Assembly (NCBI RefSeq): GCF_024508235.1
Contig: NZ_CP101943.1
Location: forward strand, 1,364,001 to 1,428,000
From: Halococcus qingdaonensis
GTDB taxonomy: Archaea; Halobacteriota; Halobacteria; Halobacteriales; Halococcaceae
Direction: 5' to 3'
Length of the DNA stretch: 64,000 bases
This document shows positions 30,509-47,932 of the stretch, in pieces (the stretch's first letter is position 1; each line of letters begins with the position of its first letter). A program made the translations under genes and the position numbers. Under the pieces are notes generated by a model, which saw nothing but the letters and a program-made list of their open reading frames with translations, had not been told where the DNA came from and did not search any database.

Positions 30509-31966
30509 TCAGTACGACTTGGCGAAATACGCTGTCTCGGTCGCGTCGTCGCCACAGATCGCACACGTGTCGTCGATCGGCCCCTCGTCCTCGTCGAAGG
30601 GGACCATCACGATCTCGGCGGCGATCTCGTCTTTGATCTCGGTCTCGCAGCCTTCCTCGCCACACCACGCGGTCTTGACGTAGCCACCGTGCTGACCGAT
30701 CGTACCGAGCAACTCGTTGCGACTCTCGGCTTCGCGGACGTTTTCCTCTAGCTCTTCTTCGGCGGCGGCGTACAGTTTCGCGTAGACGGTGTCGAGATGC
30801 TCGTCGACCGTGTCGGCGATACTCTCACGCCCCTCGACGATCGATTCGCCGTCTGGACGGTGGACGAGCGTCGCTTCCTCGTCTTCGACCTCGTGCGGCC
30901 CGATCTCGATGCGCAGCGGAACGCCGTTGAGCTCCCATTCGTTGAACTTGAAGCCGGGGTTGCGCCCGTCGCGATCGTCGAGTTCGACCCTGATGTCCGC
31001 CTCGTCGAGCTCGGCGGCGAGCTCGGCGGCGTAGTCGAGCACCTCCTCTTGAGTGTCCTCCTGCCAGATGGGCACGACGACGACCTGTTCTGGTGCGATC
31101 GCGGGCGGGAGGACGAGCCCCTGATCGTCCGAGTGGGTCATGACCATTCCGCCGAGCGCGCGCCAGGAAAGGCCCCACGAGGCCGTATGCGCGACGTGTT
31201 CGTTCTCGTCCTCGTCGACGTAGGTCACGTCGAACGCCTCGGCGAACCCGTCGCCCAGGTAGTGACTCGTCGCCGCCTGCAGGCTCTTGCCGTCGGGCAT
31301 CAGCGACTGCACGGCGGTCGTCGTGTCGGCCCCAGGGAACTTGTCGTGTTCGGGCTTGCGCCCCTCCAGCACGGGGATCGCGAGCACCTCCTCGTGGAGG
31401 CGACGGTACTGCTCCAGGCGGAGCATCGTCTCCTCCCACGCGCTCTCGCCGTCGCGGTGGGCGGTGTGGCCCTCCTGCCAGAGGAACTCCTTGGTGCGGA
31501 AGAACGGTTTCGTATCCGTCGCCTCCCAGCGGACCACCGAACACCACTGGTTGAGGCGCATCGGGAGATCGCGGTGGCTCCGGATCCACTGGCTCATGAA
31601 CGGCGTGATGATCGACTCGCTGGTCGGGCGGACCGCGAGGCGCTCGTCGAGCTCGTCGTTGCCCGCCTCCGTCACCCACGCGACCTCCGGATCGAACCCC
31701 TCGACGATCTCTTTCTCGCGTTCGAGGTAGCTCTCGGGGATGAACATCGGGAAGTAGCTGTTCTGGACGCCCGTGTCCTTGAACCAGCCATCCAGATGAT
31801 CCTGGATCCCCTCCCAGAGGGCGTAGCCACGGGGGCGGGTGACGATGAACCCGCCCATCGGCGCGTAGTCGGCGAGCCCCGCCTTCTGGACGAGTTCGGC
31901 GTACCACTCGCCGGGGCTGTGCTCCTTCGATTCGGTGATCCCGAGGTCCTGCTGTGGGTCGCTCAT
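30509..31966 (-). CDS. proS: Prolyl-tRNA synthetase (archaeal/eukaryotic type)
   Basis: A 485-residue class II synthetase that charges tRNA-Pro. Order: N-terminal catalytic core with G-G-F-I-V-T-R-P-R-G-Y-A-L-W; motif 2 region around Q-W-C-S-V-V-R-W-E and F-F-R-T-K-E-F-L-W-Q-E-G-H-T-A-H; the Q-A-A-T-S-H-Y-L-G segment; then the anticodon-binding domain. The C-terminal domain carries cysteine pairs (C-G-E-E-G-C and C-A-I-C) for zinc and ends in Tyr, diagnostic of the archaeal type. ATG 31966 matches the conserved start and lies about 25 nt after a GTTTAAC box. Confidence 0.97.
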   Translation of the reverse strand: MSDPQQDLGITESKEHSPGEWYAELVQKAGLADYAPMGGFIVTRPRGYALWEGIQDHLDGWFKDTGVQNSYFPMFIPESYLEREKEIVEGFDPEVAWVTEAGNDELDERLAVRPTSESIITPFMSQWIRSHRDLPMRLNQWCSVVRWEATDTKPFFRTKEFLWQEGHTAHRDGESAWEETMLRLEQYRRLHEEVLAIPVLEGRKPEHDKFPGADTTTAVQSLMPDGKSLQAATSHYLGDGFAEAFDVTYVDEDENEHVAHTASWGLSWRALGGMVMTHSDDQGLVLPPAIAPEQVVVVPIWQEDTQEEVLDYAAELAAELDEADIRVELDDRDGRNPGFKFNEWELNGVPLRIEIGPHEVEDEEATLVHRPDGESIVEGRESIADTVDEHLDTVYAKLYAAAEEELEENVREAESRNELLGTIGQHGGYVKTAWCGEEGCETEIKDEIAAEIVMVPFDEDEGPIDDTCAICGDDATETAYFAKSY

Positions 31967-31987: not shown

Positions 31988-31994
31988 GTTAAAC
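31988..31994 (-). promoter_or_regulatory. TATA-like box of proS
   Basis: GTTTAAC on the minus strand, centred about 25 nt upstream of the proS ATG, consistent with a leaderless or nearly leaderless transcript. Confidence 0.5.
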
Positions 31995-32225
31995 ACGGTA
32001 CGATTCGCTCGTGTGAGATGATGAAGAGCAGCTCTGCAGTCGATCGGCGAAAGCGGTTGACTAGTCCAAATACCAAACCGCCATATCGGGGGTACATCTG
32101 TTAATGAATACATAGTACAATAATCGTAGTTGAAATCTGGAAGGTATTTTCGATTGAATGTCGATATTTCGAATGAACCAGAAGAGAATAAGTGTCAAAT
32201 CATACAAGAGCCACTGTTAGCACAG

Positions 32226-32236
32226 CATTTAAATCG
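32226..32236 (+). promoter_or_regulatory. TATA-like box of the AT-rich two-gene cassette
   Basis: CATTTAAATCG on the plus strand is centred about 27 nt upstream of the ATG at 32258, the spacing of a leaderless haloarchaeal transcript. It supports real transcription of the small acidic gene and the following membrane protein. Confidence 0.5.
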
Positions 32237-32257
32237 TACTATATGTAACACAGTCGC

Positions 32258-32497
32258 ATGACTGATGATGAACCAGACGAAAATGAGAGCAATGAAGAAA
32301 GTGAACAACCCCATATTAAAAAATCTCGAAGCGTTGATGTAGATGATCTTTCCGGAGAAGTCGAAGGGGGTCAAGAAGTAACTGATGTTCGAGATGCTCC
32401 CGAAGAAGGATATACGATGGCTCCTTCGCAGAATAATCCAGATCGTAATAGTGATGATGAGAATGACGATACAAACGGCGAAGATTCAGACAACTAA
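32258..32497 (+). CDS. Small acidic, probably disordered protein
   Basis: A 79-residue protein with a large excess of Asp, Glu, Asn and Ser, no cysteine, no hydrophobic segment and no recognisable domain; it ends in D-S-D-N. It is unlike neighbouring genes in base composition: codons ending in A or T are common (GAT, AAT, GAA). It starts just after a well-placed TATA box and precedes the DUF6338-like gene by 17 nt on the same strand, so the two form a likely operon. I do not recognise it; it may be a soluble partner of the membrane protein. Confidence 0.6.
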   Translation: MTDDEPDENESNEESEQPHIKKSRSVDVDDLSGEVEGGQEVTDVRDAPEEGYTMAPSQNNPDRNSDDENDDTNGEDSDN

Positions 32498-32514
32498 CTA
32501 ACTCCAAACCTACC

Positions 32515-33210
32515 ATGCCAATTACAGCGCAAGCACTTGTATTGGCATCTCTGTTGATCGCGCCGGGACTTATTGCAGTTCTTATTGCAATTACTCTTGG
32601 TGTTGTAGAACGAGAGGTGACGCAATACCAACTATACGGGACAGCTTTTGTATCTAGCATCCTTATTGACGTTGTCTTTGTTTGGATTGTTCAGGTCTCT
32701 GGGAAAGATGTAACAGGAAGAGATGCACTTGAAAACATATTCTTTACCGAATCAGGATTCCAGGTCATCGCTGCCGTTGGTCTTTTTGCTATAGCCATTT
32801 TTGTTGGTGTTATATATTCTATCGGTTTACATTTCGACATCCCTGATAAATCTCGTGCACTACTCGGACACTTCACTTCTCGTCGTCGAAATCCGTGGCA
32901 ACCCTGGGAAGGAACACTAAAAGACGCTGATGTAGTACAGATAAATCTCTCGACAGGATATGATGTTGTGGGACGTCTTGGAGAATACAGTCGGGTTGGG
33001 AAAGAGAGGCAAATAATGCTTCACTCCCCACAATTTGATTTTGAAGACGAGCCAAATCGGATGAAAATACTCCTTTTCGAAGATGAAATCGATACTGTAT
33101 CAATCCAGTCTATTGAGAGTCAATCAGGGCTCAATCGGCGTACCAAGATATTCAGCTGTGTCATCATTTTGTTTCTGGTCGTTGTGGCTGCTATAAGTAT
33201 ATTTTACTAA
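32515..33210 (+). CDS. DUF6338-like membrane protein
   Basis: A 231-residue protein. Three N-terminal membrane segments (about 4-28, 42-62 and 83-104) are followed by a cytoplasmic region with R-R-R-N-P-W-Q-P-W and the strand-rich block V-V-Q-I-N-L-S-T-G-Y-D-V-V-G-R-L-G-E-Y-S. A last hydrophobic helix spans about 212-230. The N-terminal helices plus the 'G-x-x-V-x-G-x-L-x-x-Y-S' block resemble DUF6338, a family of unknown function. AT-rich codon use contrasts with the chromosome, a sign of transfer. Substrate or role cannot be read. Confidence 0.7.
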   Translation: MPITAQALVLASLLIAPGLIAVLIAITLGVVEREVTQYQLYGTAFVSSILIDVVFVWIVQVSGKDVTGRDALENIFFTESGFQVIAAVGLFAIAIFVGVIYSIGLHFDIPDKSRALLGHFTSRRRNPWQPWEGTLKDADVVQINLSTGYDVVGRLGEYSRVGKERQIMLHSPQFDFEDEPNRMKILLFEDEIDTVSIQSIESQSGLNRRTKIFSCVIILFLVVVAAISIFY

Positions 33211-33333
33211 AAACAAATATTAGCCGTTCTATCATCTGACATCGGCACAAATCGGATCGATAACCATAGTATGTCCATCTCCTATATGTTGTTGAGTGAA
33301 TTAAGTCGGGAACTGGATTTGGTTACGACTGAT

Positions 33334-46036: not shown

Positions 46037-47032
46037 CTACGGTCGCGGCGCGGCCTTCTGGAGCGCCGTTTCGGCGATGTTGCCGCCGTAGTCGGCACTG
46101 CGCGACAGCGAGTCCGCGACGAGACCGAGCCGTTTGACGCGCTGGGGATCGAGCGTTCGGAGCAGGTCGTCCACTTCGCGGGCACGTTCGTCGACCGTCT
46201 CGATGCCCGCCATCGCCTCGTTGGCCAGTTCGACGGCCTCGTCGGAATCCTCCGAGAGCAGCGCGTCCATCGCCGTCTCGACGACCGCTGCGGCGTCGCT
46301 GTGGAGCGTCCCGAGCGCTTCGCCCGCGTCGTCGGGGACGCCGTCGAGCGCACCCGCGAGATCGGCGATCTTGGTCGCGTGATCGGCGACGCGTTCGAGC
46401 TGGCGCGCACTCGTATGGTAGTCGAAACACGTCTCGCGCGGCAGGCCGATGTCGGACGCCGCGCTCGGATGACGGAGCGCACCCCGGAAGACGCGCGAGG
46501 TCATATACCAGAGCCGATCGACGTCGTCGTCGCGCTCGATGACGTCGGCCGCCAGGTCCTCGTCACCGGTCCGCAGCGCCGTCACGGCGTCGTCGAGCAT
46601 GGTGAGCGCGACCAGTCGCATCCGTGTGACGGCGTTGTGGATCGACAGTTCGGCTGAGTCGAGAAGATCCTGCAAACACACGTGCTCGGCCGTCTCCTCG
46701 ATGATTTCGAGCCCTACCAGCCCCTGGGCGGTCTCCCGGATGGTCCGGCGCTGAGCGGCGTCGACGCTCGCCGTTTCGAGCGTGATAACGTCGAACCCGC
46801 TGACGTACATCGTCACGACCGCACGGGTGAGTTCGCCGTCGTTCAATCCCGTCACGTCGAGCGTCCCCTCGGCGTTCTCGGTCTCGGTGCGTGGGGCGAG
46901 CAACAGCGATCCCTCCTCGGGGTAGAACTCGATCTCGCCGCCGGCCTCGACGCCGTGGGCGGTCGCCCACCCCTTCGGCAACGAGACGGTGTACGTCGAG
47001 CCCCCGGTGACCTGCACCTTGCGCGTCTCCAT
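46037..47032 (-). CDS. PhoU-domain protein with N-terminal AbrB DNA-binding domain
   Basis: A 331-residue protein. Residues 1-50 form a SpoVT/AbrB swapped-hairpin (R-K-V-Q-V-T-G-G-S-T-Y-T-V-S-L-P-K-G-W-A). The rest contains two PhoU-like helical bundles with D-R-L-W-Y-M-T-S-R and E-R-V-A-D-H-A-T-K-I-A-D. Haloarchaeal PhoU-AbrB proteins are thought to regulate phosphate uptake genes. It is divergent from a second PhoU gene with AT-rich promoter elements between. ATG 47032 is used since the AbrB strand starts immediately. Confidence 0.88.
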   Translation of the reverse strand: METRKVQVTGGSTYTVSLPKGWATAHGVEAGGEIEFYPEEGSLLLAPRTETENAEGTLDVTGLNDGELTRAVVTMYVSGFDVITLETASVDAAQRRTIRETAQGLVGLEIIEETAEHVCLQDLLDSAELSIHNAVTRMRLVALTMLDDAVTALRTGDEDLAADVIERDDDVDRLWYMTSRVFRGALRHPSAASDIGLPRETCFDYHTSARQLERVADHATKIADLAGALDGVPDDAGEALGTLHSDAAAVVETAMDALLSEDSDEAVELANEAMAGIETVDERAREVDDLLRTLDPQRVKRLGLVADSLSRSADYGGNIAETALQKAAPRP

Positions 47033-47055
47033 GCTTCTGATCGTCACGCCGACAC

Positions 47056-47071
47056 AATAAATCCGTTTATT
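47056..47071. promoter_or_regulatory. AT-rich inverted repeat between the two phoU genes
   Basis: AATAAA, TCCG, TTTATT (47056-47071) is a perfect 6-bp inverted repeat about 24-39 nt upstream of the PhoU-AbrB ATG. It overlaps where its TATA box should be and may serve as promoter plus operator. Confidence 0.4.
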
Positions 47072-47263
47072 CTATATAGTAAATCGACGATTTGGTAAAT
47101 GGGTGGAAGACATCTATTGGTTGCCGCAAATCCAACGCTTCGGATCTGTAGCGGTACATAGTTCGATATTGAAATCGTTATTCATCCGAAATCGGTCGTC
47201 GATCGGCGTGTAGACGGTGATTTCGGCGAAGGGTACATTAGGTGGAGGGTCCGACGGGGCGAC

Positions 47264-47932
47264 ATGCCCCGCGAAAGCTATCAGGAGCAGCTCGACAGTC
47301 TCCGCGAGGACGTCCTCTACATGAGCGAGATCGTGCTCGAACGCCTCCGAATGGGGCTCGAAGCGCTCTCGACGAAGGACGAGCGCCTCGCACACGAAAT
47401 CATCGAAGGTGACGACGAGATCAATCGGATGTATCTCGATCTCGAACGGAGTTGCATCGATCTCTTCGCCCTCCAGCAGCCCGTCGCCGGCGATCTCCGC
47501 TTCATCGCCTCCTCGTTCAAGATCATCACCGATCTCGAACGGGTCGCCGATCTCGCCACCAATCTCGGCGAGTACACCCTCCAGGCCGAACGCGACGTCT
47601 TCCCCGAGGTCGATATCCAGGGTATCGGGGGCATCACCCAGGAGATGATCGAAGCGGCGATGACGGCCTACGACGAGAACGACATCGACGCCTGCTACGC
47701 CATCGACGAGCGCGACAACGAGCTCGACGATCTCTGTGAACGCGCCTCGGAGATCGTCGTCCGCGATCTCATCGAATCGGAGCTCGATCCGGCCGACACC
47801 GACCAGCTCATGGCCGACGTCTCCCGCCTGCTGCTCACGATCCGCGACCTCGAACGCGTCGGCGACCACGCCGTCAACATCTCCGCACGCACCCTCTACA
47901 TGGTCGACAACGACGACGAACTCATCTACTAG
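47264..47932 (+). CDS. phoU: Phosphate uptake regulator PhoU
   Basis: A 222-residue classical PhoU of two three-helix bundles. Metal-binding signatures E-I-I-E-G-D-D-E-I-N-R, D-L-E-R-V-A-D-L-A-T-N and D-L-E-R-V-G-D-H-A-V-N are all present. PhoU modulates the Pst phosphate transporter and its signalling. No pst gene is adjacent on this side. A TACATTA element is about 27 nt upstream of the ATG and a T5 tract (47937-47941) follows the stop. Confidence 0.93.
   Translation: MPRESYQEQLDSLREDVLYMSEIVLERLRMGLEALSTKDERLAHEIIEGDDEINRMYLDLERSCIDLFALQQPVAGDLRFIASSFKIITDLERVADLATNLGEYTLQAERDVFPEVDIQGIGGITQEMIEAAMTAYDENDIDACYAIDERDNELDDLCERASEIVVRDLIESELDPADTDQLMADVSRLLLTIRDLERVGDHAVNISARTLYMVDNDDELIY

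Follow-up and report, generated by a model that had tools for sequence, protein, structure and literature searches.

The window analyzed here, a 64,000-nucleotide stretch of the Halococcus qingdaonensis chromosome (NZ_CP101943.1, positions 1,364,001 to 1,428,000), contains a low-GC insertion of 1,322 bp (32009 to 33330, no strand assigned) between proS, whose start codon lies near position 31966 on the minus strand, and an SRPBCC gene. The insertion carries two genes on the plus strand, one encoding a short, acidic, disordered protein (32258 to 32497, 79 aa) and the other a DUF6338 membrane protein (32515 to 33210, 231 aa). GC content is 41.6% across the insertion versus 67% in the flanks, and elsewhere in the window stretches of this length all have at least 60.1% GC (mean, 66.5%; SD, 2.2%). 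These measurements bear out an earlier note on this DNA, which had reported an abrupt fall in GC to roughly 40% between proS and the SRPBCC gene, two same-strand genes 17 nt apart, and flanks free of integrase, transposase, and repeats; such repeats as we found in the window are short and away from the insertion borders, with no transposase flanking it. A milder GC dip (55%) at 47001 to 47500, between two PhoU-like genes, resembles an ordinary intergenic and coding stretch.

The earlier note had proposed looking for an empty site in close relatives, and three congeneric genomes (G061, G077, and G053) have one: proS directly adjoins the SRPBCC gene, with DNA identity of 84 to 92% on both the proS and SRPBCC sides and 93 to 98% identity in the ProS protein. 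Alignment to all three genomes breaks at 32008/33331, and this break, together with the adjacency of proS and the SRPBCC gene in relatives, identifies the 1,322-bp stretch as an insertion, which has taken the place of about 9 to 18 nt of the ancestral intergenic region. More distant members of the genus share the proS side alone. The empty sites rule out a conserved housekeeping locus. No target-site duplication, terminal repeat, or integrase was found at the insertion, nor any plasmid DNA match to it, and with neither repeats nor a plasmid match we rejected remnants of a mobile element at the borders. The 64-kb window contains no detectable Rfam family or tRNA, and thus no sign of tRNA-targeted integration. 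The cassette stands alone between chromosomal genes, and neither a defense gene nor a mobile gene was found beside it in the window.

A TATA-like box (TTTAAAT, 32228 to 32234, plus strand) lies 24 to 30 nt upstream of the ATG of the short gene, the spacing expected for a leaderless haloarchaeal transcript; the sequence suggests that this box acts as the promoter, in line with the earlier description of a well-placed TATA box. The predicted product is strongly acidic, as had also been proposed (28 D/E versus 5 K/R; pI, 4.05), and no signal peptide is apparent by eye. Residues 50 to 61 form the motif EGYTMAPSQNNP, encoded at 32405 to 32440 (plus strand); in an alignment of 15 sequences, the motif proline is the sole invariant residue of the C-terminal half. 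The core of the window motif, GYTMAP, is a looser version of a GYxP form and also occurs in the three nearest relatives (L028, L014, and L034). In closely related pairs, dN/dS is 0.26 to 0.62 for the short gene (distant pairs are saturated) and 0.07 to 0.21 for the DUF6338 gene; over these pairs the short gene shows the purifying selection of a coding sequence. Coding-type selection and recurrence beside DUF6338 rule out a chance open reading frame (ORF). A tblastn search with the window microprotein, a short query of low complexity, found only itself.

Across the haloarchaeal order, PF19865 (DUF6338) exceeds its cut-off in a patchy set of 41 of 392 genomes, and a threshold of E ≤ 1e-15 places relatives of the window protein in 24 of the 392 and in 15 of 95 genera. 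Along with the empty sites, this distribution excludes the conserved chromosomal position across the genus that the earlier note had named as a refuting case. DUF6338 is single copy in the H. qingdaonensis genome; Haloferax volcanii has a DUF6338 over the cut-off, and G061 and G099 carry DUF6338 genes elsewhere in their genomes. Every one of the 23 haloarchaeal loci examined from the window's clade has an acidic short ORF directly upstream of DUF6338, making the short gene a real and constant partner there. Within this clade the two genes do co-occur as neighbors, which disposes of the possibility, raised earlier, that the short gene is never conserved next to DUF6338.

The haloarchaeal short ORFs are about 65 to 130 aa long, are often Ser/Asp-rich, and end anywhere from 32 nt past the DUF6338 start to about 30 nt short of it (the true start is uncertain in L083). 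Their motifs vary by clade, from GYTMAP or GYTVAP in the window group to GYIPT, GYIPA, GFGHIPT, GYGFIRPS, VTMAPEHVP, and IPxSVDP-like forms elsewhere; GY is absent from the L002 clade and from the L038/L039 clade, and 13 of 47 haloarchaeal loci match a loose regular expression for these degenerate motifs. A second haloarchaeal DUF6338 clade (L017, L023, L024, and L019) has a different acidic short ORF containing ADTPDSDPRG, sometimes in two tandem copies, and a third has no short ORF. Three further arrangements were observed. DUF6338 genes of one clade, possibly a housekeeping version, lie directly downstream of the translation elongation factor 2 (EF-2) gene without a short partner (L085, L099, and also L029). 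In L015 and L031, the DUF6338-like proteins are long (537 and 574 aa), and the gene upstream resembles by eye a Panacea/SocA antitoxin-type domain. In L026 (G099:C54), the DUF6338 frame continues into transposase-like sequence, a sign that a mobile element may lie at the end of the gene.

The earlier identification of the second product as a DUF6338-like membrane protein is supported by a PF19865 match over the curated cut-off (E = 8e-14; 52.1 bits versus 26.5; model positions 1 to 198 of 205). Its predicted layout comprises three N-terminal membrane helices (residues 5 to 29, 37 to 61, and 84 to 106), a five-strand barrel (138 to 200), and a C-terminal membrane helix (206 to 230). An AlphaFold2 model built with 31 sequences has a mean pLDDT of 85.2, and its Foldseek matches in the PDB are nearly all Sm/LSm proteins, including archaeal SmAP, spliceosomal Sm, and Edc3 (best E, 5.5e-4; TM to target, about 0.5 to 0.8). 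A separate model of a bacterial DUF6338 also matches Sm proteins, more weakly (best E, 2.2e-3), and hhalign against haloarchaeal SmAP gave a weak match in consistent register (E = 1.5e-4 in one comparison; probability, 52%; 59 columns). These models predict that DUF6338 is an Sm/LSm domain (32926 to 33114, plus strand) anchored in the membrane. The conserved Y-D-V-V-G-R-L-G-E-Y-S block, singled out earlier from the sequence, falls within it and corresponds to the second strand of the predicted LSm-like fold. The window protein has no match to Pfam LSM, and both the Sm1 D-x-H-M-N and the Sm2 RGD signatures are absent from the alignment of DUF6338 with SmAP. Because these signatures are missing, an RNA-binding role is less likely, and we rejected a canonical RNA-binding Sm protein.

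Divergent haloarchaeal queries led to bacterial plasmids, and from these to further bacterial and viral records. In total, bacterial DUF6338 was found in 21 plasmid records, one Klebsiella phage-plasmid, 21 viral contigs, and 6 of 5,426 Escherichia coli genomes. An alignment of all DUF6338 proteins was too divergent for a viral scan; the bacterial group alignment retrieved the 21 viral relatives and the haloarchaeal group alignment none, and a search of a phage collection with the window protein likewise gave no match. In bacteria the gene order is reversed, with DUF6338 followed by one to four tandem microproteins (mean, 55 aa) carrying GYxP repeats. A GYxP microprotein lies within 400 nt of DUF6338 in 29 of 34 bacterial loci, and GY.P occurs in 46 of 106 ORFs near DUF6338 (43%) versus 12 of 2,123 background ORFs of the same loci (0.6%). 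The 46 GYxP ORFs, from 28 loci, contain 87 GYxP motifs, 60 of them GYQP, and most end in PPKxP. A reverse search with the ending PPPKKP* only recovered 56 short ORFs; 37 have G[YFH]xP, 26 of these just downstream of DUF6338, and every short ORF beside DUF6338 has G[YFH]xP. Since the pairing persists between domains despite the reversed order, gene context favors a shared function over inherited synteny. The motif link between archaea and bacteria itself, drawn from a short and partly degenerate sequence, is best read as suggestive.

Eleven viral ORFs carry GYQP...PPPKKP-type sequence with no DUF6338 nearby. Among these (L262, L231, L193, and L227; L200, L225, and L256; L217, L236, and L259), the neighbors are lysis genes in some cases and terminase or glycosyltransferase-like genes in others, and an N-terminal membrane helix is present in some of the proteins. 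Their occurrence without DUF6338 suggests that the motif may have another receptor, and these proteins may serve as decoys, as triggers, or as ligands for a different partner.

The DUF6338 module is found on plasmids, a phage-plasmid, prophages, satellites, and Tn7-like cargo, and several copies are operonic with defense genes. In Mesorhizobium, a CBASS cyclase (E = 6e-125) and a 2TM effector lie upstream of DUF6338 with a 10-nt gap; in Acinetobacter, a metallohydrolase (MBL) and an E2-E1-JAB protein lie 10 to 14 nt upstream, with a WYL regulator; in Proteus, a ThsB-type TIR and a caspase lie downstream inside Tn7-like cargo; and in Streptomyces, a CHAT protease follows the microprotein by 3 nt. 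Other defense genes are nearby and not clearly operonic: TIR and caspase genes in Curtobacterium (divergent), TIR in Dietzia, type I restriction in Gordonia, TIR and SIR2 in E. coli elements, and DUF4062 in Acinetobacter baumannii. No defense neighbor was found at either of the two Rhodococcus loci or at the A. pittii and Pantoea loci. Matches to PADLOC at E ≤ 1e-10 cover 193 families among haloarchaeal neighbors of DUF6338 (212 proteins) versus 61 in control regions (184 proteins), figures that count families rather than systems, with controls from the same or matched genomes that are imperfectly matched for plasmid position. The families include DISARM, BREX, Hma, type IIG, and type IV Cas; the DUF6338 proteins tested gave no match to PADLOC models. 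The defense genes that the earlier note thought worth seeking in homologue neighborhoods are thus present at the CBASS, E2-E1-JAB, TIR-caspase, and CHAT loci. Where that note had allowed for a defense, stress, or signaling module, this genomic association favors a role in conflict or defense.

The literature offers partial parallels. In Pseudomonas stutzeri, the well-expressed operon Pstu14405_12030 encodes DUF6338 and three proline-rich microproteins, which its authors found not to be conserved beyond P. stutzeri and suggested were de novo genes; DUF6338 also occurs in biosynthetic clusters (PMC10433244). That operon resembles the cassettes described here in joining DUF6338 to several short proline-rich proteins, whereas our comparison finds partners of this kind repeatedly in both bacteria and archaea, and we would expect the P. 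stutzeri microproteins to carry GYxP. Although the window protein belongs to PF19865 by sequence, a predicted Sm/LSm fold and a conserved short partner appear neither in the family description nor in that paper, the single one found on DUF6338, and both are new here. Dcp2 carries several helical leucine-rich motifs to which the LSm domain of Edc3 binds (PMC4320757). This domain shares with the DUF6338 model an LSm fold, appears among the Foldseek matches, and pairs that fold with short linear motifs in a disordered protein; it differs in being eukaryotic, soluble, and part of mRNA decapping, in recognizing a leucine-rich helix rather than GYxP, and in that its binding is demonstrated, whereas for DUF6338 binding is proposed.

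A gene pair that joins several unrelated defense systems also has a precedent, in the nuclease-protease pairs that such systems have acquired repeatedly (PMC12799240); activity was shown for those pairs, whereas the pair described here is predicted to combine a membrane LSm protein with a peptide. CBASS-type membrane effectors (2TM/SLATT) are also small membrane proteins in defense operons, and one DUF6338 gene lies 10 nt after a CBASS 2TM gene, but the cytosolic domain of DUF6338 is predicted to be LSm. Since one A. baumannii DUF6338 adjoins DUF4062, we compared the Swarozyc (DUF4062) paper, which does not mention DUF6338. Searches for "GYxP motif" found no literature, and "GYQP" gave unrelated sequence matches only, among the matches listed. 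No described system joining a membrane-anchored LSm protein to motif-bearing microproteins was found in the open-licence literature, where a subscription-only description would escape notice, and we therefore regard the module as a new kind.

We propose that DUF6338 and its partner form a co-functioning, mobile, two-part LSm-peptide module with a role in conflict or defense, probably against viruses, and we give this reading a probability of about 0.5. Its firm results are the pairing and, as a structural model, the LSm fold. DUF6338 would be a small membrane protein with a cytosolic Sm/LSm-like barrel, and its partner a short, soluble, disordered protein with a linear motif (GYxP in bacteria; GYIPT, GYTMAP, GYGFIRP, and more degenerate forms in haloarchaea). 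By analogy with Edc3 and Dcp2, the natural reading is that the LSm domain reads, and would bind, the peptide motif. Abundant peptides could hold DUF6338 quiet or set its assembly; their loss, cutting, or displacement upon infection would free DUF6338, which would oligomerize and thereby damage or seal the membrane. We infer binding, inhibition, a membrane effect, and defense from these patterns; likewise, the membrane part might form a pore and the peptides might activate rather than inhibit, and the detailed order of events is tentative at best. Using read-through of the stop between both genes as a pseudo-complex for AlphaFold (L122, DUF6338 plus microprotein), we observed no docking, and pLDDT was 42 to 53 over the microprotein (42 to 46 over most of it), a part covered by one alignment row only, so this model lends binding no computational support. 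Also weighing against the module reading are the degenerate haloarchaeal motifs, the haloarchaeal DUF6338 clades without this partner, the phage microproteins that bear the motif in the absence of DUF6338, and a window copy with no defense gene beside it.

Alternatively, the cassette could be a selfish toxin-antitoxin element rather than a defense system, with DUF6338 as a membrane toxin and the short protein as its antitoxin. Mobility, frequent location on plasmids, an acidic and disordered partner, and a short gene placed first in haloarchaea all suit this reading. We nevertheless consider it rather unlikely, given that the short protein has no detected DNA-binding domain, that up to four tandem microproteins downstream of a bacterial DUF6338 would be unusual for an antitoxin, and that the module is embedded in defense operons. 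The patchy distribution, the mobile-element and defense context, and the excess of defense-family matches over control regions also make it improbable that DUF6338 is an accessory regulator of membrane or envelope stress (e.g., osmotic or membrane-tension control) that has no conflict role and spread by ordinary horizontal transfer, as the clade adjoining EF-2 in a few haloarchaea and the isolated chromosomal position of the window copy might suggest.

We find it very unlikely that the microproteins give rise to secreted peptides of the bacteriocin or RiPP type, with DUF6338 as an immunity or export protein: small genes in tandem that repeat a core motif, proline-rich composition, and DUF6338 in biosynthetic clusters point that way, but the pairs examined have no constant modification, leader-peptidase, or transporter genes beside them, and the window cassette consists of two genes only, without a signal peptide by eye. 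Least credible is an anti-defense or superinfection-exclusion factor serving the mobile element rather than the host; presence on phages, phage-plasmids, prophages, and plasmids would accord with it, whereas the module also sits inside defense operons, a few nucleotides from core genes, and the copy in the window is on the chromosome and adjoins no mobile gene.

The LSm-peptide reading can be extended, speculatively and with the odds well against it, to an immune logic common to bacteria and archaea, in which a membrane LSm receptor set by motif microproteins would serve as a plug-in effector of unrelated defense systems and the free motif peptides of phages would act as decoys or triggers. 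If true, a receptor-peptide principle, a fold reading a short motif, would join the prokaryotic conflict systems, DUF6338 would gain its first role, and a class of microproteins missed by annotation or called de novo genes would be accounted for.
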